The notes under the pieces are model-generated. The model saw only the letters and a list, made by a program, of their open reading frames with translations. It had not been told where the DNA came from and made no database searches. The position numbers and the translations under genes were made by a program. This document shows positions 2,091-23,772 of a DNA stretch of 29,851 nt, piece by piece. Origin of the DNA: a virus; the IMG/VR virus record IMGVR_UViG_3300044470_000192, positions 1 to 29,851 of that record, one strand, 5' to 3'. Numbering within the stretch: the stretch's first letter is position 1; the number at the start of each line of letters is the position of its first letter.

Positions 2091-2114
2091 TCTATGTATT
2101 TTAGATGGCTTATA

Positions 2115-2145
2115 GCCCACCTATACTAATTATATAGGTGGGCTT
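2115..2145 (+). promoter_or_regulatory. hairpin hiding the RBS of GIY-YIG gene 1, with CTAATTAT in its loop
   Basis: GCCCACCTAT (2115-2124) pairs perfectly with ATAGGTGGGC (2134-2143). The loop is ACTAATTAT. The ribosome site AGGTGG is inside the 3' arm and the ATG is 2 nt after the stem. The loop motif CTAATTAT (2126) lies 20 nt before the ATG, the spacing shared with other genes here. A transcript started at the loop motif would lack the 5' arm. Confidence 0.7.
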
Positions 2146-2979
2146 ATGTTTGGTATAGTCTATTGTGCTACAAATAAAATAAATAATAAAGTATATATTG
2201 GTCAAACTACACAAAATCTTAATAAAAGAATTAAACAACATTTTAGAGACTGTTATAGAAGAAAAACTTATTTTTACTCTGCTCTTTTACTATATAAAGC
2301 TGAAGATTTTTTATGGGAAGAAATAGATCAAGCTTCCTCAAAAGAAGAATTAAACCAAAAAGAAATATATTGGATTACAAAATATAAAGCTAATGATAGG
2401 AGTCTTGGATATAACACTCATGAAGGAGGCTGTGGAGGGGCGCAAACAAATCCTGAAGTTTTGTTAGCAATGAGCATTGCTACTAAAGGAAAAATTCTAT
2501 CAGAAGAGATAAAGAAAAAAATATCTATAGCAAATAAAGGTAAAAGAATAGGAAAAGAAAATCCTATGTATGGAAGAGCCGGGTGGAATAAAGGATTAAA
2601 AACTGGACCTTTATCAGCAGAGCATAAAAGAAAAGTGGGTAAAGCCCACAGAGGTATTAAAAAATCTGAAGAATGCAAAGAAAAAATAAGACAAAAAGCA
2701 ATAGGAAGGATAGTATCTAGAGAAGTAGTTGAAAAAATAAGGCAAAAAAAGATAGGTAGTCATGTTTCTCCCCAAGCTTTAATAAATCTTCAAGAATCAA
2801 AAAAATGTAAAAGAAAACCTGTTCAATGTGTTGAATCAAGAAGGATTTATTCTTATGTTAATGATGCAGAAACGGAAACAGGAATAAATAAAGAAGTTAT
2901 ACGTCAATGTTGCCTTGGACATTACAAAACCGCAGGTAACTTTCATTGGCAGTGGGTTGACATTACTATAAGAAAGTAG
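2146..2979 (+). CDS. GIY-YIG homing endonuclease 1 with NUMOD-type DNA-binding repeats
   Basis: 277 residues. The GIY-YIG nuclease domain is at the N terminus (GIVYCATN, then KVYIGQT near residues 18-24, followed by a conserved Arg and a QKEIYWI helix). From about residue 110 to 210 there are NUMOD3-like repeats of the type S-E-E-x-x-K-K-I. The C terminus (YSYVNDAETETGI to GNFHWQWV) resembles a NUMOD1-like helix-turn-helix. It lies free-standing after pth2 and nicks or cuts DNA to spread itself. The stop TAG is followed at once by TAA. Base composition is even more AT-rich than its neighbours. Confidence 0.92.
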   Translation: MFGIVYCATNKINNKVYIGQTTQNLNKRIKQHFRDCYRRKTYFYSALLLYKAEDFLWEEIDQASSKEELNQKEIYWITKYKANDRSLGYNTHEGGCGGAQTNPEVLLAMSIATKGKILSEEIKKKISIANKGKRIGKENPMYGRAGWNKGLKTGPLSAEHKRKVGKAHRGIKKSEECKEKIRQKAIGRIVSREVVEKIRQKKIGSHVSPQALINLQESKKCKRKPVQCVESRRIYSYVNDAETETGINKEVIRQCCLGHYKTAGNFHWQWVDITIRK

Positions 2980-3968: not shown

Positions 3969-3986
3969 AGTAGTTTATTACTCTAT

Positions 3987-4004
3987 CTTCTAACTAATTA
4001 GAAG
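3987..4004 (+). promoter_or_regulatory. small hairpin with CTAATTA loop before the SH3-repeat gene
   Basis: CTTCT (3987-3991) pairs with AGAAG (4000-4004), with AACTAATT between. CTAATTAG starts at 3994, 22 nt before the ATG at 4016. It is the same motif position as at GIY-YIG genes 1 and 3, but here the ribosome site (AGGAAG, 4006-4011) lies just outside the stem. Confidence 0.5.
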
Positions 4005-4015
4005 TAGGAAGACTA

Positions 4016-7000
4016 ATGAGGATACAAGAAATATTTTCTCAATTCGTATATGTACAACCCAAAGACCCAGAAAAAATAATGATAGATTTCTATTTCATGG
4101 TAGGGTATGTCTATGGTACTGAATTTAAGGATGATGTTGTTGACTGGGTGATGAAAGAAGCGGTAAAAGACTGTGTTGAGGCCCATCGAAAGCATATGGT
4201 TAAGGCACTAAAATACTGTTGTGCTGCTGAATTTAAACATATTGATAAGTATTGTCTCACATTAAAAAAGGCTTCAAGTGCAAATAATTTAGGTGCAGCT
4301 TTGAACATATTAAAAGAGCATTATTCCCCCCTAACATATAGATTCCTAGTTGAGTACCTATCAATAAAACCATTATATTTTAGTTCCTCTGGTTCTAGCA
4401 TAGACAATGACAATCCTCGGTTAGGCTTAGATAAACGTAATTCTAAATATCCGGTGAACCCTGATAGTGGTAAGTATCTGAATCAATTTAAGGCTTTAGT
4501 AAAAACGCAACGATTATTAAAGTATTCAAATGAAGATATAGCAAAGGTAATGATTGAGATGTTTGACAGTAAGGAAGGATGGAAGTCTGCTTATGGTGGT
4601 ATAGCCTGGAAGAATATTTCTGAGTGCCTATTAAAATTATTACAAGCAAAAACCTTAGATGATAAGGTAGTATACTGTGATCATGCTTATGATCTTGAAC
4701 ATAATACTGGTGTAGTCTTCAACAAGATGGAAAGCTATGCTGGTTATGATGATTATAGATGGATAAAAAAAGACTTAGACTGGAAAAGGGATAACAGATC
4801 ACTTAAAGATTTCTATGATAAGGTTTCAACACAACTACAGAAAGTTGTAGCATATGTAAGTAAATATAAATATGATGATCCTCTGTTGCCTCCAGAGCGA
4901 ACAAGTAAAGAAATAGAAAAGATAAAGCAAGAAGTACAAGGTACAATACAACAAGGTTGGTTTTCAGTTAGTAGCGTAGACCAAATTCATGTTGGAGATA
5001 CAGTAAAGCTAGTTAAGGATTCTACTGATACTCTTCATAAAAAGGGAGAAGAAGGAAAAGTTATTAAAGTTGGTGGGGCTACTCTAACCCATGAGTATTC
5101 TATAAAGATAGAGTATTCTAATGGAAGCAAATTTTGGGAGCCCTATTATAATGTAGTTGTAAAGAAGGAGGAGCAACAAACTACTAAAAATAATACTCCT
5201 ATAGGTCCTAAAGTTCCTGTTACTCTCTCTAATGCTACTTTAGCTACAGATTTAGATAATCTAAAAGTGGGAGATGAAGTACAGATAAAGAAGAACCTTA
5301 GTACGATTATACAGTCTGTTAGTTCGAACATGACTGGGTATAAAGGTGAAATAGCTACTATAACCGAGGTACTTCCTAACCTCCAAGATGAACCTACATA
5401 TAAAATTAACTTAGATAGTGGTGAATGGTATTGGACTAAAAAAATGTTTGAAGACCCTAGCAACCCTACTAAATCTGCCTCTACAGCCTCTACTGATAGT
5501 TGGAAACTATTTGATGATATATATCAATTAAAAGTAGGGGATAAGGTTAAAGTAATAGTAAAACCTACATCAGGAAGTAAAGCACATATAGGGGATGTAG
5601 GGGTAATAACTTCTATTAATAAAGATAGCAACGATAATATAGTAGATTATAAAGTTGAATATGGTAATGGTGATGAATGGTATGAGTATGAGGATGAAAT
5701 AGAATTAGTATCAAAGGATACTGATACTCAGGAACTAAAAGTAGGAGATGAAGTACAAATAAATCCTGATTTACATGTAGATTCTAAGCTCTTTATTGTA
5801 AATGATATGGTTGCCTTTGCCGGTACTATAACCAAGATAGATCATCTTTATTCCGCCACTCAAAATAGTAAAGCAGAATATTTTTTTCTAGACCTTCCTC
5901 CTCCTGGTGATAAATATTTTTGGACAACGGATATGTTTACTCCTATTAAAAAAGTAGATACTAAAAGTAAGGATTTTACTTATGGCAGTGTGGGTATAGG
6001 AGATAAGCTCTATTTTACATATAGTAGTGGTAATATTATAACAGGTACAGTTATGTCTAAAGATTTATCATTACTGGTTGTCAAGTGGAGTGATGCTAGT
6101 ACACCTATCTCTTATACCCCTGAAGAGTTTAATAGTCTAATTAAAGATAGTAAATTAGAATTAGAAACTGGTAAACCTAAGGAAGATAATGATGGTTGGA
6201 TAAATTTAACTTCAGTCTCACAATTAAGTGGTGGAGAAAAAATAAAAAAAGAAGGTTATACTGGTGAAGTTATAGGCACAGATTCAGTAAATTCATATAC
6301 CGTAGAATGGGAGTATAACCCTGGTATTGCTACTCCTTATTATCAGGATGATATAGATGGAGAGAACTGGAAATATATACCTAATACCGAAGATTCTGAC
6401 AATAAATATGCAGAATTAGTAAGAAAACAGATTTATACTATTGATGAGTTCGAAGTTGGCAAGAAAGTTATATTTACTAACATACAGGGAATGGAATACC
6501 CAGGTACAATAACAAAGAATACAGGATTAAGTGTATGTATTAACTATGATAATGGTGGGGATAGTTTGTATGATGCTGAAAGTATAAAAAGCTTGCTAGA
6601 GAAAGGAAGAAGAAAGTTTGAATTACTGGTTCCTGAAGAAGAATTTTCAATAGAAAAAAAGAACGGTAACTCTAATCCTAAAGAATATAAGTTAGGCAAG
6701 TGGGTTCAAGTTAGACAAATAGATATGCTATACCCTGGATTAGATATAACAGCAGGAGTAGACATAGTTGGAACTATTTCTGAAATAAATACTACTGCTG
6801 TAGAGCCATATTTAGTTGTTGATAATCAAAAGTATTATTTTCCAGAGATTAAAGAGCTTATTTCTAGTGGTGATATGTATATGTATGTAATTCTTGGTAA
6901 AGATGAAGAGCCTGTCCATAGCGAGCTAGAAGATTTTAGTGATGACGGTGAAATAGAGCACGATGAAGATGTAGAAGAGGGTGACTATGGTGGACCTGTT

Positions 7001-7396: not shown

Positions 7397-9199
7397 ATGA
7401 AGATTATAGTGACAACTGACACCCATTGGGGTTTCTCTACCAAGGGAGATCAAGCCAATGTAGTATTACTCAACAAAATAAAAGATGAGAAGAAGGATGC
7501 TCTTATCCATTGTGGAGACTGGGGCTCAACTTCTTTTGCTGATCGCTATAACTATTGGAAATTAGTTAGAGATATACTTGGTAAGGATTTGCCTATAGGT
7601 ACCATCATGGGTAATCATGATTGTCTTGATGCAGAAACAGAACTCTTAACTAAGAGAGGGTGGATAGCATATACAGAGATTAAAAAAGATGATTCTGTTT
7701 ATAGCTATAACATTCAAGAAGATAGAGGTCAGTGGGACAAAATAAAGAATATCCTTATTAAAGAAACTGATAAAGTACTATCCACTCAAGTAAAACAATA
7801 CTCCTTTACTGGAACCGAGGGCCACAGAGTATTGTGTTCTACTAGAAAGGGGGGAGAGTTTAAAGAATATGACTACCTTCCTGCAAAGGACGTAAAGGGG
7901 AGAATAAAAATAAAATCTTGTGCTTCAGAAAAAAAAGAAAATTATAATATTCCTAATGGTATAATTCAATTAGCTGCATGGATACTTACTGATGGATATA
8001 TTGGAAGAAAAAAAGATACACATACAGGACAATATAGTATTTATCAATCTAAGTCTATACAGAATATTATTAATATTCTTCATGAACTTAATTTTACTTA
8101 TACTATTTATGAAAGAAATAGGGACATACAAGAAATATGTGGTAAAAAATTAGTTAAAAAATGTTTACCACAAAAAGAGATTGTTCTTAGTAATGAATCA
8201 GCTAAAATATTTTCTAAATATTTATATAACAAAAAATTTCCTGAATGGGCATATAAATTAAGTGATAAACAATTTGAATTATTTTTATTCTCTATTCTGG
8301 AAGCAAACGCCTCTAAGGCTACTTATGGCACTAGCCATATTTTATATGGAACTAAAGAATTTCTGGAAGAATTTCAAATTTTATGTCTTCTTCACAATAA
8401 AAGAACTCTCTATAAAGAAGATAATAGAGGTGATCCAAGACTTTATATTACTAATAAGGATTCAGTCCAATATGATGCTTCCTATCATAATATTATTATT
8501 GAGCAGAAACAAATAGTATGGTGTTTGGAGGTCCCTTTAACAAATTTTATGGTAAGAAGAAAAGGAACAACTTATTTCACTGGAAATTGTTGGGCAGGTA
8601 AATTCTTTAGACTCTCTCTACCTTCAATTATGTCTATTAAATATACTACTCCTATTTCTCCTTATGAAGTATATGTACAGAATATGGCTATACTAAGAGA
8701 ATTCGACATTGTTAATCTTTTTAATGAAATGGAGATTCAAGGGGGGAGTAAGACCCTTTACATTCGGGGATTTGATGGATGGTACAGAGATGATGTGAGA
8801 ACCAATGACCAACATTACATCCCTGGCTTTAGGCCCGTAGGTTTAGAATGGCTCCAGAAGCGTTCCCATAATCAATTTGAAGAAGTAATAAAGAGTTTAG
8901 GAGAAGCCAAAGACAAAGGGAAAATTACTATGCTTGTTACTCATTTTGGGTTCATAGAAGAGGATGCCAAGAATGATTGGAAAGCACGATCTTCTGCTAT
9001 GAATACCTTTGGTCGAACTATAGAGCCTCAATACTTCGGTGCTAATCTAAAGTATGAGGATTTCCTTGACAAAGTTGATTATATGTGTTATGGTCATAGT
9101 CATAGTGCTTTTGCTGGTGTTGCTAAGAATGGTACCACAAAAGTATTGAATGTGGGAAGTGATTATGACTTACCTTTATATAAAATACTAACTATATAG
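7397..9199 (+). CDS. calcineurin-like metallophosphoesterase interrupted by an intein
   Basis: The 600-residue precursor consists of N-extein 1-75, intein 76-397 and C-extein 398-600. The spliced 278-residue protein has the metallophosphoesterase motifs in order: TDTHWG (D-x-H), HCGDWG, GNHD (ending exactly at the intein), VTHFG and GHSHS near the C terminus. Such enzymes hydrolyse phosphodiesters or phosphomonoesters with two metal ions. The substrate is unknown, though RNA or DNA end processing would fit the repair genes nearby. The mRNA appears leaderless. GIY-YIG gene 2 follows 17 nt after the TAG stop. Confidence 0.9.
   Translation: MKIIVTTDTHWGFSTKGDQANVVLLNKIKDEKKDALIHCGDWGSTSFADRYNYWKLVRDILGKDLPIGTIMGNHDCLDAETELLTKRGWIAYTEIKKDDSVYSYNIQEDRGQWDKIKNILIKETDKVLSTQVKQYSFTGTEGHRVLCSTRKGGEFKEYDYLPAKDVKGRIKIKSCASEKKENYNIPNGIIQLAAWILTDGYIGRKKDTHTGQYSIYQSKSIQNIINILHELNFTYTIYERNRDIQEICGKKLVKKCLPQKEIVLSNESAKIFSKYLYNKKFPEWAYKLSDKQFELFLFSILEANASKATYGTSHILYGTKEFLEEFQILCLLHNKRTLYKEDNRGDPRLYITNKDSVQYDASYHNIIIEQKQIVWCLEVPLTNFMVRRKGTTYFTGNCWAGKFFRLSLPSIMSIKYTTPISPYEVYVQNMAILREFDIVNLFNEMEIQGGSKTLYIRGFDGWYRDDVRTNDQHYIPGFRPVGLEWLQKRSHNQFEEVIKSLGEAKDKGKITMLVTHFGFIEEDAKNDWKARSSAMNTFGRTIEPQYFGANLKYEDFLDKVDYMCYGHSHSAFAGVAKNGTTKVLNVGSDYDLPLYKILTI
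7622..8587 (+). other. intein with LAGLIDADG endonuclease, 322 aa
   Basis: It begins at Cys76 (CLDAETELLTKRGW, splicing block A), has block B TGTEGH (138-143, His143), and ends at Asn397 before Cys398 (TYFTGN|C). Block F is IVWCLEVPLTNFMV, with Cys where Asp is common. The penultimate residue is Gly instead of the usual His. Endonuclease motifs are LAAWILTDG (about 192-200, intact acid) and LFLFSILEANAS (about 295-306, degenerate with Glu). It sits directly after the GNHD active-site motif, so only the spliced host protein should be active. Confidence 0.88.
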
Positions 9200-9216
9200 A
9201 GGTATGATAAAGATTT

Positions 9217-10158
9217 ATGATAGAAAATAGAGAGTGCTATGGATATATTTATAGGGTTATGAATAAGAAATCTGGAAAGCTTTATATAGGACAAACAATA
9301 AAAAAAGGGTATAAATTTCATAGATATCTAGGATCGGGTCAGGCTATTGTAGCATTAGTAAAAAGAGAAGGAAAAGAAAATTTTTCTAAAGTAATTTTGG
9401 ATTATGCATTTAGTGAGAGGGAATTGAATTATTTGGAAAAATTATACATAGAGATGTTTTCTACTTCTTTTCCAGAAATAGGCTATAACTTAACTTTGGG
9501 AGGGCATAATGGAATTCCTAATGAGGAAACAAGAAAAAAAATAAGTATGGGAAATAAGGGAAAAAAGCTCTCAGAAGAAACAAGAAAAAAAATAAGTGAA
9601 TCAGAATCAGGAAAAAATCATTATAACTGGGGTAAACACCCTTCAGAAGAAACCAGAAAAAAACAAAGTATATCTCATTTAGGGCACTCTCCTTCTAATA
9701 AAGGAATACCTCATTCTCAAAATACTAAAAATAAAATAAAAGAAAAAAGAAGTCATCAAATAATGACAAATAGAAAAAAAGTTATAAATTTAGATACAAA
9801 AGAAATATTTGCAAGCATGAAAGAAGCCTGTAATAAATATGATATAATGCCTTCAGAGTTAACCTCCCATTGTCAACGAAAAGAAAATATTAGATATGTT
9901 AAAAAGTTTCGTTGGGCATATTATTCAGACTCTATAAATATAGAGGAGGAAATTAAATCTTCTTTTTTTATACAAAGAAATAAAGGATGTAATCATCCCA
10001 AATCTAGAATAGTTTTGAATATAGAAACAGGAAGAATATATAATACTGTTACAGAAGCTGCTTTATCTTGTGGCAAGCACCACTCTGGCATCATTGATTC
10101 TTGTACTAATCCTATATACACTTGTGGGGGTTTTCATTGGAAATACCTTGACAAATAA
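9217..10158 (+). CDS. GIY-YIG homing endonuclease 2
   Basis: 313 residues. Nuclease domain: GYIYRV and KLYIGQT in the first 30 residues, then a conserved Glu/Leu-rich helix near 75-85 and GYNLTLGG. There are several NUMOD3 repeats of the E-E-T-R-K-K-I-S kind (about 100-160) and two C-terminal NUMOD1-like segments, the second ending GGFHWKYLDK. There is no hairpin before it and only a weak, distant ribosome site (AGAGGT), so it may depend on coupling to the metallophosphoesterase gene. Its 3' end contains a promoter -35 box. Confidence 0.92.
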   Translation: MIENRECYGYIYRVMNKKSGKLYIGQTIKKGYKFHRYLGSGQAIVALVKREGKENFSKVILDYAFSERELNYLEKLYIEMFSTSFPEIGYNLTLGGHNGIPNEETRKKISMGNKGKKLSEETRKKISESESGKNHYNWGKHPSEETRKKQSISHLGHSPSNKGIPHSQNTKNKIKEKRSHQIMTNRKKVINLDTKEIFASMKEACNKYDIMPSELTSHCQRKENIRYVKKFRWAYYSDSINIEEEIKSSFFIQRNKGCNHPKSRIVLNIETGRIYNTVTEAALSCGKHHSGIIDSCTNPIYTCGGFHWKYLDK

Positions 10159-10176
10159 TATAATATGTAGTATATT
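10148..10176 (+). promoter_or_regulatory. sigma-70-type promoter for tRNA-Ser(GCT) and following genes
   Basis: TTGACA (10148-10153), inside the last codons of GIY-YIG gene 2, 17-bp spacer, TATATT (10171-10176). Predicted start is near 10183, one base before the tRNA, so the primary transcript has almost no 5' leader. Confidence 0.75.
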
Positions 10177-14704: not shown

Positions 14705-14716
14705 GTATCATTCTAT

Positions 14717-14751
14717 GAGTATTACCTACACTAATTATGTAGGTAACACTC
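14717..14751 (+). promoter_or_regulatory. hairpin hiding the RBS of GIY-YIG gene 3, with CTAATTAT in its loop
   Basis: Left arm 14717-14729, loop ACTAATTAT (14730-14738), right arm 14739-14751, with 12 pairs and one A-C mismatch. The only ribosome site, AGGTAA, is in the right arm and the ATG follows 1 nt later. The loop is identical to that before GIY-YIG gene 1, while the stems differ in sequence yet both pair. Confidence 0.72.
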
Positions 14752-14752
14752 A

Positions 14753-15448
14753 ATGTATTATATTTATTTAATAACTTTTCCTAATGATAAAGTTTATGTA
14801 GGTCAATCTAAAAATATAAAAAAAAGATGGTATGAACATAAAAGATTAGGAAAAAAAGGAAATGAACGAATTATACTTTATGAGGCAATACATAAATATG
14901 GAGTTGATTCCATTTCATTTGATATTATTGATAAAGCAGAAACATTAAAAAAAATTAATCAAAAAGAAATTCAGTATATAGTTCAGTATCATTCTTATAT
15001 TCATGATCTTGAATGTAATGGGTATAATATGACATTAGGTGGAGAAGGAACTGAAGGCCATATAGGTTTAAAGGGTCAAGCAGCTTCAATGTCATTAACT
15101 TCTATAGCAAAACGTAATAATTGTTCTTTAGAAGAAGCAAAAAAGTTAACCCCTATGTATGGTAAAGTAAGAGATGAATATACTAAACAAAGAGCCTCGG
15201 AAACTCATAAGGGAAAAATATTATCAGAGGAAACTAAGGAAAAAATTAGAGCAAAAACTATTAAATATTCTTATACCTTAACTAATACTGAAACTGGAGA
15301 GATATTCATAACTACAAGTTTAAATCAATGGTGTAAGGATCATAAAATAGAAAGGTCCATTCTCTCCAAAAGAGTGAATACCTTAGAGCAAAGACCTAGA
15401 AAAAAATTAAAAGAATGGAATATACAGAAAATTGATCTAACCTCTTGA
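14753..15448 (+). CDS. GIY-YIG homing endonuclease 3
   Basis: 231 residues. The nuclease domain starts at the N terminus: YYIYLI, KVYVGQS near 14-20, KRWYEH, then QKEIQYI near 76 and GYNMTLGGEG. A single NUMOD3-like stretch (KILSEETKEKIRAK, about 165-178) and a C-terminal helix-turn-helix-like part (TSLNQWCKDHKIERSIL) follow. Its TGA lies inside the -35 box of the next promoter. Translation is predicted to be blocked in read-through mRNA by the hairpin before it. Confidence 0.91.
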   Translation: MYYIYLITFPNDKVYVGQSKNIKKRWYEHKRLGKKGNERIILYEAIHKYGVDSISFDIIDKAETLKKINQKEIQYIVQYHSYIHDLECNGYNMTLGGEGTEGHIGLKGQAASMSLTSIAKRNNCSLEEAKKLTPMYGKVRDEYTKQRASETHKGKILSEETKEKIRAKTIKYSYTLTNTETGEIFITTSLNQWCKDHKIERSILSKRVNTLEQRPRKKLKEWNIQKIDLTS

Positions 15449-15473
15449 CAACAAACTTATTATATAGTATACT
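15445..15473 (+). promoter_or_regulatory. sigma-70-type promoter at the end of GIY-YIG gene 3
   Basis: TTGACA (15445-15450), 17-bp spacer, TATACT (15468-15473). It drives the gene at 15506, with a leader of about 25 nt that contains AGAGGAT. Confidence 0.78.
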
Positions 15474-18771: not shown

Positions 18772-18795
18772 CTCCCATACTAAGTATGGGAGGAG
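18772..18795 (+). promoter_or_regulatory. hairpin hiding the RBS of the zinc-ribbon gene, with CTAAGTAT
   Basis: CTCCCATA (18772-18779) pairs with TATGGGAG (18785-18792), loop CTAAG. The ribosome site GGGAGGAG begins inside the 3' arm. CTAAGTAT at 18780 is 21 nt before ATG 18801, so the motif overlaps loop and stem as at the GIY-YIG genes. No T-run follows, so it is not a terminator. Confidence 0.55.
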
Positions 18796-20975: not shown

Positions 20976-23060
20976 TTAGATAAAGCCTAATTTTTTGATC
21001 AAATCTTCAGTGTTTTTCTTTATATCATCATTGGTTAGAGTGATTTTGTTATCGTCCCAAACCTGCAATAGAGACTGTCCATCAGTAGCTAAATACTTAT
21101 GGGCTAGATAGACAGCCCCAGCAATGGCATCAGAACAGTCTTTGGCGTTTATACCCAATAGTGAGGTTTCCCACGCATAGTCAGCAGTGGCAGGATTAGG
21201 CGAATCCCCTATAGTATGGTCTATCTTTAGGCTCTTTGTTCGAGGACGTTGGGTGATTCTTAAAGACTTTAGGTTATTCTTGATAAAAACATTCCTTCCC
21301 ATCTTCAAGTTCCCTTGTTCAATCTGTTGCGCTAAAAATAAATAAGGGTCCATAGTTTCATCTACTGATATATGGTCCATTTCAATCTCTGCTCTCTCTA
21401 AGTGTTGTAATGCTGCTTCAGATTGATATGTGTCATATGAACCCATTATGATTGGTATTTGGCCCTTAGTAAATACATCAAAGATAAACTCTTTTATGGC
21501 ATCTAGGTTGATTCTACCACCAAAGGGATGAATAGGTATAACCATGTCTACTACATAAATAATATCATGTTCTAAATCTAATGCCTTATCGGTTTTCTTT
21601 CTCTCTACGTGAGCAAAAGCTATAGCGGACATATCATTCGACAAAGACTGGTCAATATGGAATACTCGTGGAACCCCTGGTTTATAGTAGAAATGGTACC
21701 CAAACCCAGACTTAATAAATAAATCATCTCTAATTTTTTTCCATATCAATTCATGTGGTTCCATTCGAGCATCGATATGTAAGCAAAACTCTACTGATTT
21801 CATTTGTGGTATAAAACAATTATTTATTTTAGTATAGTCATAAAATAATTTATCTAAAGAACCTTGTGGTATTCCAGCTAAATCTTTTAGTGATTTTTGT
21901 AAATCATCATGAAACATCTGATACAATTCTTTAGGAACCATAAGAATGTCAGAAGCCTCATACCCCTCTGAGGAACCTAATATTTGGGGAGGTTTTCCAT
22001 TGCTCCCCTTAAAAATAGGAAATCTATCATCAACATTTTTATAATCACCTGGAACCCAGTCCCAATGGGCACCCTTGATAACAAAATTAGATGGGTCTTT
22101 ATCCGCATCAAACATACAATATTGGTCTATAGGGGATTCCATATCATTAGGACTGCTATCCAATATTGTACGGGCGAAATAATTTAATCCATGTTTGCTA
22201 GTAGGGTCCTTCATTCTTGACCATACTCTTTTTTTAGCATCATTATAAAATCTTAAAATATAATCATCTGTTTTACCGTTTTCTCTAAAGAAATTCAATT
22301 CAGTAAAAGTGCAACATACTATGGTTAATCCTAATAATCTTCCAGGAGTTGATGCTAATTTATAATTAACTCCATTTGAAAATTGTAGAGAAGAAACCCC
22401 ATTTCTTGAGGCTGTTGTCCAATAAAGCTTATTCACAGTTCTTTTTTCTTGATATTCTTTTTGTTTTTTAGCAATATCTTTTTTAGTTCTAACTTGTTCA
22501 AAAAATTCTGAACCTTCAAGAATGTTTATCATAGGATTTAATAATACCTCTGAACTCTTTTTAAGGTTAAAGGAGCAAAATACTTGTGCTAAATCCCCAC
22601 CTATATTTTTCTCCATTAATGCTTTTTTAGCATCATACATTAAAGCTAAATGTATAGTTGTGTATAAATTCCATAAAACAGCCAATACTGATTTTCCAAA
22701 ACCTATAAAAGGAAAAAGAATAGCATTTCTATAATTATCACTAGAAAATTTAATAAAAGAATCATACACCCAGGGGTATAAAGAGGATGCAGTGTACTCC
22801 CCTAAATATTTTGCTGATAAAAACTCTTCGGGGGTTGGGGGTTTTACTCTATATTTTACCCTCCAAGAATTATTTATTAATTCTATTTTCTCACTTTCAT
22901 CTAGTTTATCATTACTAATAATGAATTCTAATGCTTTTTGTATTTTTTCTATGCTAATATCATCATATATTTGAAATAAATCTATTAAATCAACATCTCC
23001 TTCAAGTACATCCAATAAAATAGAATTTAAATTTTCTGATTTATTAATATCTATTTCCAT
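20976..23060 (-). CDS. terL: terminase large subunit
   Basis: 694 residues from the ATG at 23060 (GGGAG 8 nt upstream; the TTG at 23075 would sit in the ribosome site). FIGFGKS (about 118-124) is a Walker A P-loop. LTIVCCTFTE (about 245-254) is the Walker B strand, with Thr before the Glu where most have an acid. FHIDQSLSND (Asp470) starts the RNase H-like nuclease, and SDAIAGAVYLAHKY near 650 supplies its last acid. TerL pumps DNA into the prohead and cuts it. The gene overlaps GIY-YIG gene 4 by TAATG. Confidence 0.9.
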   Translation of the reverse strand: MEIDINKSENLNSILLDVLEGDVDLIDLFQIYDDISIEKIQKALEFIISNDKLDESEKIELINNSWRVKYRVKPPTPEEFLSAKYLGEYTASSLYPWVYDSFIKFSSDNYRNAILFPFIGFGKSVLAVLWNLYTTIHLALMYDAKKALMEKNIGGDLAQVFCSFNLKKSSEVLLNPMINILEGSEFFEQVRTKKDIAKKQKEYQEKRTVNKLYWTTASRNGVSSLQFSNGVNYKLASTPGRLLGLTIVCCTFTELNFFRENGKTDDYILRFYNDAKKRVWSRMKDPTSKHGLNYFARTILDSSPNDMESPIDQYCMFDADKDPSNFVIKGAHWDWVPGDYKNVDDRFPIFKGSNGKPPQILGSSEGYEASDILMVPKELYQMFHDDLQKSLKDLAGIPQGSLDKLFYDYTKINNCFIPQMKSVEFCLHIDARMEPHELIWKKIRDDLFIKSGFGYHFYYKPGVPRVFHIDQSLSNDMSAIAFAHVERKKTDKALDLEHDIIYVVDMVIPIHPFGGRINLDAIKEFIFDVFTKGQIPIIMGSYDTYQSEAALQHLERAEIEMDHISVDETMDPYLFLAQQIEQGNLKMGRNVFIKNNLKSLRITQRPRTKSLKIDHTIGDSPNPATADYAWETSLLGINAKDCSDAIAGAVYLAHKYLATDGQSLLQVWDDNKITLTNDDIKKNTEDLIKKLGFI

Positions 23061-23734
23061 TATACATACTCCCAATGTAATTTATTCCAGGTTTTTCTTT
23101 GACCTAGACAACACTCGGATATATGATTTGAATTTTTATTAAATATTTCTTGGGCTTGGCGAGAGGAATCATATATTTTATTAGTCTCTATACAAATAAT
23201 TTTTTTTTCTTTTCCATTGGTTTTCCCATATAATAAATTATTTTTTCCTCTTATTCTTTCTTTTTGTTCCTCTGTTCTTTTTTTACCTTTTAGTTTAAGT
23301 ATTCTTTTATTTATTGTTTCTTGGGATTGCTTTCTACCTAATGCTGCTATTCTCATTAATATTCTTGTTTCTTTAGAAACAGAATGCCCTTTTTGAGCTA
23401 AACTCATTTTTCTTTTTACTTCCTCGGAAAGTTTTCCATCAGCACCAGGGAATTTAATATTATAGCCCTTTTGGTAATTCATAGTATCATAGTAAAATAC
23501 AAAATAAGTTTCATAAAAATTTAATAATTGCTTTGTCCAATTATCATCAGTAATCTCTATTAGAACTTCTTTATCAAAGTTTCCCCATTCATATTTATTA
23601 ATAGCATTATAAAAATAAGTGTTTTCTTTTTTATACCAAAATTTGTGTTCTCTCCATCTACTTTTAATATTTCTACTTTGGCCTATGTATATTTTTCCAT
23701 TTATTTTATTAGTAAACTTATAAATTCCTATCAT
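23060..23734 (-). CDS. GIY-YIG homing endonuclease 4, directly before terL
   Basis: 224 residues. GIYKFTN and KIYIGQS in the first 20 residues, RWREH, then NFYETYFV and GYNIKFPGADG, are followed by NUMOD3-like repeats (SEEVKRKMSLAQKG, SQETINKRI; about 108-145) and a NUMOD1-like C terminus (KIYDSSRQAQEIF to NKLHWEYV). The stop overlaps the terL ATG and the last codons supply terL's ribosome site, so the insertion has kept terL translation coupled to the endonuclease. A CTAACTAA motif lies 26 nt before its ATG. Confidence 0.92.
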   Translation of the reverse strand: MIGIYKFTNKINGKIYIGQSRNIKSRWREHKFWYKKENTYFYNAINKYEWGNFDKEVLIEITDDNWTKQLLNFYETYFVFYYDTMNYQKGYNIKFPGADGKLSEEVKRKMSLAQKGHSVSKETRILMRIAALGRKQSQETINKRILKLKGKKRTEEQKERIRGKNNLLYGKTNGKEKKIICIETNKIYDSSRQAQEIFNKNSNHISECCLGQRKTWNKLHWEYV

Positions 23735-23752: not shown

Positions 23753-23760
23753 TTAGTTAG
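23753..23760 (-). promoter_or_regulatory. CTAACTAA motif before GIY-YIG gene 4
   Basis: A variant of the CTAATTA motif, 26 nt upstream of the minus-strand ATG at 23734, followed by AAAAGGAA. In the flanks, CATACTGG and CCAGTATG (which includes the start codon) are inverted repeats that could pair around it. Confidence 0.4.
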
Positions 23761-23772
23761 TGCTATAAATGC

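Follow-up and report, generated by a model that had tools for sequence, protein, structure and literature searches.

Hairpins around a promoter-like motif probably gate the translation of homing endonuclease genes in an uncultured phage lineage

The window analysed here is a 29.9-kb virus contig (29,851 nt), and Pfam and PHROGs assignments identify four GIY-YIG homing endonuclease genes (HEGs) in it (Table 1). HEG protein relatives elsewhere are distant only, mostly at 25-50% identity, and megablast found no match in phage records to the first 20 kb of the window. Three of the four HEGs (HEG1, HEG2 and HEG3) overlap at their 3' ends a strong promoter-like site of the next gene, with TTGACA followed by a 17 nt spacing; the TGA stop of HEG3 sits inside the TTGACA itself. 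Promoters of downstream genes are also embedded in the HEGs of phage T4, an arrangement thought to favour HEG retention (PMC2988022). We rejected this overlap as a clade-wide trait, since it is absent from the rest of the clade described below.

The leaders of three HEGs (with ATGs at 2146, 9217 and 14753) have their ribosome site in the stem of a hairpin and ACTAA(T/C)TA in the loop. The HEG1 hairpin consists of AGCCCACCTATA, the loop CTAATTA and TATAGGTGGGCT, and ends 1 nt before the ATG; the 5' side of the HEG3 hairpin is TGAGT followed by TTACCTACA. The original prediction, that these two genes are preceded by hairpins that bury the ribosome site and share a loop while differing in their paired stems, is borne out, with 12 perfect pairs for HEG1 and 14 pairs with one mismatch for HEG3; ACTAATTAT is common to both, and the remaining stem sequences differ, yet pair (in HEG3 with the one mismatch). 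The hairpins it listed are real, but it overlooked the one before HEG2, composed of TACCTTTATATA, AAATACTAAC and TATATAGAGGTA and carrying ACTAACTA, the 5' arm of which lies within the final codons of the preceding gene (7397-9199). The evidence for the HEG2 hairpin is weaker because its Shine-Dalgarno site is far (~14 nt) from the ATG. RNA folding gave z scores of -2.96, -4.6 and -2.27 for the long leaders of HEG1, HEG3 and HEG2, respectively. The stem is gone from the RNAs predicted to start at motif+11, and weaker residual structure over the start region is still possible in the short HEG1 RNA.

Perfect stems of at least 9 bp occur six times in the whole window, versus a mean of 1.95 and a maximum of 7 in shuffled sequences. 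Three of the six are terminator-like and lie at gene ends (2987, 17763 and 25860); the other three are the hairpins of the original prediction, all of which have a start codon shortly after them and contain ACTAA in the loop. Relative to shuffled 5' flanks, pairing of the ribosome site was significant in 3 of 11 HEG leaders, namely those of the three window HEGs, and not for most others. No exact copy of the hairpin was found elsewhere in IMG/VR. The bare nine-mer, allowing one mismatch, is present 30 times in the window versus 26 expected by chance, which is no excess; it is unusual in position, strand and structural context, not in frequency. As had been claimed, the motif also precedes other genes of the window (4016, 17821, 18078, 19174 and, on the minus strand, 20951), although the supposedly fixed distance is a range of 22-28 nt. 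Two ordinary genes have a motif-associated stem in their leaders: in the G2 ortholog of the 4016 leader the stem is stronger and some of its pairs differ, and the ortholog of the 18801 leader has only a weak version of the hairpin.

Table 1. Features of the window and of related contigs (prefix L).
Feature	Position	Strand	Description
HEG1	2146..2979	+	free-standing GIY-YIG homing endonuclease, 277 aa; PF01541, E 1.1e-10
HEG2	9217..10158	+	GIY-YIG/NUMOD3 homing endonuclease
HEG3	14753..15448	+	GIY-YIG homing endonuclease; PF01541, E 2.9e-9
HEG4	23060..23734	-	GIY-YIG homing endonuclease
HEG1 leader hairpin	2114..2144	+	5' arm 2114-2125, loop 2126-2132, 3' arm 2133-2144 with ribosome site AGGTGGG
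HEG2 leader hairpin	9171..9204	+	TACCTTTATATA / AAATACTAAC / TATATAGAGGTA
HEG3 leader hairpin	14716..14752	+	14 pairs, one A.C mismatch; loop CTAATTA; abuts ATG 14753
ACTAATTA motif in HEG1 loop	2125..2132	+	motif statistics, logo, spacing; putative start A2136
ACTAACTA motif at HEG2 loop	9187..9194	+	putative start A9198
ACTAATTA motif in HEG3 loop	14730..14737	+	putative start A14741
ACTAACTA before HEG4	23754..23761	-	ribosome site exposed; no clear hairpin
Motif 3993-4000 with flanking stem	3980..4010	+	precedes 1058-aa gene at 4016
Hairpin CTCCCATAC/TAA/GTATGGGAG	18772..18792	+	ACTAAGTA at 18779-18786; precedes non-HEG gene, ATG 18801
TTGACA promoter-like site, HEG1 3' end	2957-2985
TTGACA promoter-like site, HEG2 3' end	10148-10176
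TTGACA promoter-like site, HEG3 3' end	15445-15473
Apparent leaderless gene	L288:18051-18064	+
Apparent leaderless gene	L316:13839-13852	+
Apparent leaderless gene	L327, gene 3144-685	-
Sigma-like protein	L322:690-1301
Sigma-like protein	L326:6977-7618	-
Sigma-like protein	L353:1320-2033	-

Relatives of the window, found through the major head protein (itself a weak phrog_138 match), amount to ~1 Mb of contigs. Among the strand-specific 7-mers that lie before genes, ACTAATT ranks first in G2 (18 versus 3) and in the distant 285-kb contig G10 (35 versus 3), and is one of the top words in G5 and G9; it is not a top upstream 7-mer in G7 and G8. The aligned motif sites give the consensus ACTAATTA, with no -35 element and with enrichment of A at motif+11 (66% of aligned sites). 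For the spacing between motif and start codon we counted ATGs that open frames of at least 60 codons, without a gene caller; gene starts used elsewhere came from a simple caller. The distances are bimodal: 30 ATGs lie at exactly 11 nt and 10 at 12 nt, no ATG falls at 16-17 nt, and a second, broader peak covers 21-30 nt (82 genes if taken as 20-32 nt); overall, the motif has 185 downstream ATGs versus 36 for the reversed motif. A Shine-Dalgarno site precedes 2 of the 40 genes in the 11-12 nt class and 69 of the 82 in the 20-32 nt class, and no alternative in-frame ATG with such a site was found within 60 nt in the 11-12 nt class. Most simply read, both classes have their transcription start at motif+11/12: an ATG located there would yield a leaderless mRNA, and other genes would have leaders of ~9-20 nt. 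The motif lies upstream of genes for terminase (G5), head maturation protease (G3), baseplate wedge (G9), and tail and tail-fibre proteins (G10), and this association with virion genes suggests that ACTAATTA is a late promoter. Thus, upstream enrichment, logo, ATG spacing and virion-gene association across the clade all favour the original view of the loop motif as promoter-like, and support its use as such an element throughout the clade. Among the papers covered by a full-text search, none has ACTAATTA together with phage and promoter, and the promoter motif appears to be previously undescribed. The apparent leaderless class, with an ATG exactly 11-12 nt after ACTAA(C/T/A)T(A/T), comprises 40 genes in the clade contigs (examples in Table 1), among them genes for a baseplate wedge protein, a transposase-family protein and HEGs.

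Two of the related contigs, G1 and G2, overlap (99.98% identity over 49 kb) and are syntenic with the window, with 60-90% protein identity to it for most common genes. Both lack all four window HEGs at the corresponding positions. At site 1, the alignment with G2 breaks at 2092 and restarts at 2953; therefore, the HEG1 hairpin and gene form one inserted block of ~860 bp. The empty sites 1 and 3 of G2 (L208) keep the downstream TTGACA promoter and have no hairpin, supporting the idea that the HEG1 and HEG3 hairpins belong to the HEG insertions. Insertion of HEG2 seems to have altered the final codons of the phosphoesterase gene before it, the coding end of which now provides both the promoter and the 5' arm; in the window this gene ends ILTI* (9171-9199), and in the relative it ends ILEV*. 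The same metallophosphoesterase gene (7397-9199) has a weak LAGLIDADG_3 match, below the cut-off, and may contain an intein; its G2 ortholog aligns over the full length.

We propose that translation of these HEGs is gated by their hairpins, each of them formed around a late promoter of the phage itself, a reading that we consider probable. Transcripts reading in from upstream would hold both arms and would fold, hiding the Shine-Dalgarno site, and no endonuclease would be made. Late in infection, RNA polymerase would start 11 nt downstream of the first base of ACTAA(T/C)TA, and the resulting RNAs would have their 5' end at the Shine-Dalgarno region, without the 5' arm, and would be translated. 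By the motif+11 rule, the late RNAs of HEG1, HEG2 and HEG3 would lack the entire 5' arm, with predicted 5' sequences of AGGUGGGCUUAUG for HEG1, AGGUAACACUCAAUG for HEG3 and, for HEG2, a sequence beginning AGAGGUAUG. The original prediction that messages started at the loop are free of the 5' arm agrees with this, in that the start deduced from the spacing to leaderless ATGs falls after the arm. The proposal draws on features of the DNA sequence: the hairpins, the motif, its promoter statistics across the clade, the spacing from which the start was placed, and the lack of hairpins in HEG-free alleles; the late timing is suggested by the association with virion genes, and the likely size of the translational silencing by the T4 precedents.

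The hairpins could instead be DNA operators, used by the endonuclease or by some other protein to repress its own late promoter, with RNA folding being secondary. I-TevI represses its own expression by way of an operator that overlaps its late promoter (PMC2988022), and the arms in the window are symmetric around the promoter. Nonetheless, the arms of the HEG1 hairpin have no obvious match, by eye, to the HEG1 insertion site, and the 3' arm repeatedly falls on the ribosome site, which an operator does not need; we consider operators very unlikely. It is highly unlikely that the hairpins serve the preceding genes as intrinsic terminators and lie beside an ATG only incidentally. A terminator scan lists 2114-2144 owing to its T-containing tail, TATGTTTGGT; however, neither this tail nor that of HEG3 (ATGTATTA) is a U-tract directly after the stem, and none of the HEG1, HEG2 and HEG3 hairpins is followed by a U-tract, in contrast to the clear terminators of the window (17763, 19678 and 2987). 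Moreover, termination would leave the common loop motif unexplained, and the HEG-free alleles lack the hairpins even though the upstream genes are conserved.

It is extremely unlikely that the window hairpins are AT-rich leaders that fold by chance around a genuine promoter, even though the motif flanks are AT-rich, the motif is partly self-complementary, and most motif leaders have no excess folding. Once terminators are set aside, the three strongest perfect stems in 30 kb all belong to motif hairpins beside start codons, and two of the window hairpins are among the best of 169 motif sites. The stems differ at each gene, suggesting repeated selection for late-only endonuclease expression.

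A gate of this type has precedents, as was originally supposed from T4. In I-TevI, I-TevII, I-TevIII and segB of T4, and in mobE of Aeromonas phage Aeh1, the ribosome site is hidden in read-through RNA and freed in late RNA (PMC2988022, PMC3014915), and the same device silences the non-HEG late genes e, soc and 49 of T4 in early read-through RNA (PMC3014915). Like the window HEGs, I-TevI, I-TevII and I-TevIII are homing endonucleases with the ribosome site hidden in read-through RNA and a promoter placed such that the late RNA lacks the 5' arm; they are intron-encoded, however, and use T4 middle/late promoters, whereas the window HEGs are free-standing and have the motif ACTAATTA. T4 segB and Aeh1 mobE are, as in the window, free-standing HEGs that have late promoters and a hairpin over the ribosome site (PMC2988022, PMC3014915), but the phage lineage and promoter differ, and the window has three such genes within 13 kb. 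T4 e, soc and 49 are genes of the host phage and are not mobile; the 4016 and 18801 leaders of the window are possible counterparts. The late promoters of T4 have the consensus TATAAATA and are gp55-dependent; with its different consensus, ACTAATTA does not belong to this type. In the window leaders, a homing endonuclease is encoded, a promoter-like motif lies in or next to the hairpin, and the ribosome site is predicted to be paired in the long RNA and free in the short RNA. By function, the window switch would therefore be of the same kind as the T4-type gated HEGs, with the effect of the hairpin on translation being predicted.

In the core clade, the motif is carried by 15 of 20 HEGs and by 152 of 1016 other genes (odds ratio 17, p 5e-9, an optimistic value because the members are related). 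Hairpins with different stems surround the motif before further HEGs in G5 (78788) and G3 (1234). The general cassette suggested in the original prediction needs correction. Several clade HEGs have an exposed ribosome site; others have their ATG 11 nt after the motif and appear to be leaderless (G2 26059-, G1 27139, G4 6727- and G10 104475-), in which case translation would be equally tied to their own promoter. Stems around the motif are also found before ordinary genes (window 4016, its G2 ortholog and 18801). Flanking stems reach p<0.05 at 18 of the 169 motif sites, versus ~8 expected, which is a modest excess. Given this modest excess, the exposed sites in some HEGs and the stems at ordinary genes, the hairpin is no obligatory HEG cassette; rather, it is a device open to late genes and strongly used by three window HEGs.

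GIY-YIG genes on unrelated viral contigs have leader stems scoring at least 26 in 7 of 139 cases, versus 2 of 314 controls. TATAAATA is over-represented before these HEGs (8 of 139, versus 13 of 932), and stems specifically flanking it are not significant there, where start codons are uncertain. Three of the strong stems have TATAAATA inside or at their loop; they form very long hairpins before the GIY-YIG genes of L117 (~276-340; RNA folding z -6.0), L090 (before 2860) and L148 (4918-4965; z -4.4).

It is quite possible, although we hold this more tentatively than the gate itself, that the clade has a single late promoter without a -35 element and two modes of translation, one leaderless at the AUG and the other with a short leader, its ribosome site hidden in read-through RNA. 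Both modes would tie translation to transcripts from the gene's own promoter, and HEGs using either would be insulated from read-in transcription wherever they are inserted. The gate itself would be an HEG control device of the T4 type in an apparently unrelated phage lineage, rebuilt on the late promoter of that lineage. The switch logic is already known from T4 and Aeh1; the phage clade, the promoter and the apparent leaderless class, HEGs included, are new. More broadly, sequence alone yields a putative late promoter and predicted transcription starts for large uncultured phages, and the leaderless class is directly testable.

Searches for a gp55 homologue matched neither phrog_234 in G1/G2 nor phrog_12791 in eight contigs, which are incomplete, and RNA polymerase searches gave no clear match. 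A candidate late sigma factor is weakly detectable in G5 (120690-121301), G9 and G10 (Table 1), as a small and divergent sigma-like protein that has a helix-turn-helix at its C-terminus; its AlphaFold prediction (pLDDT 46) is too poor for confirmation. A contig from a rumen Bacilli metagenome-assembled genome (L376, JAGBLL010000030.1) encodes a 42% relative of the clade head protein, a weak hint as to the host group.
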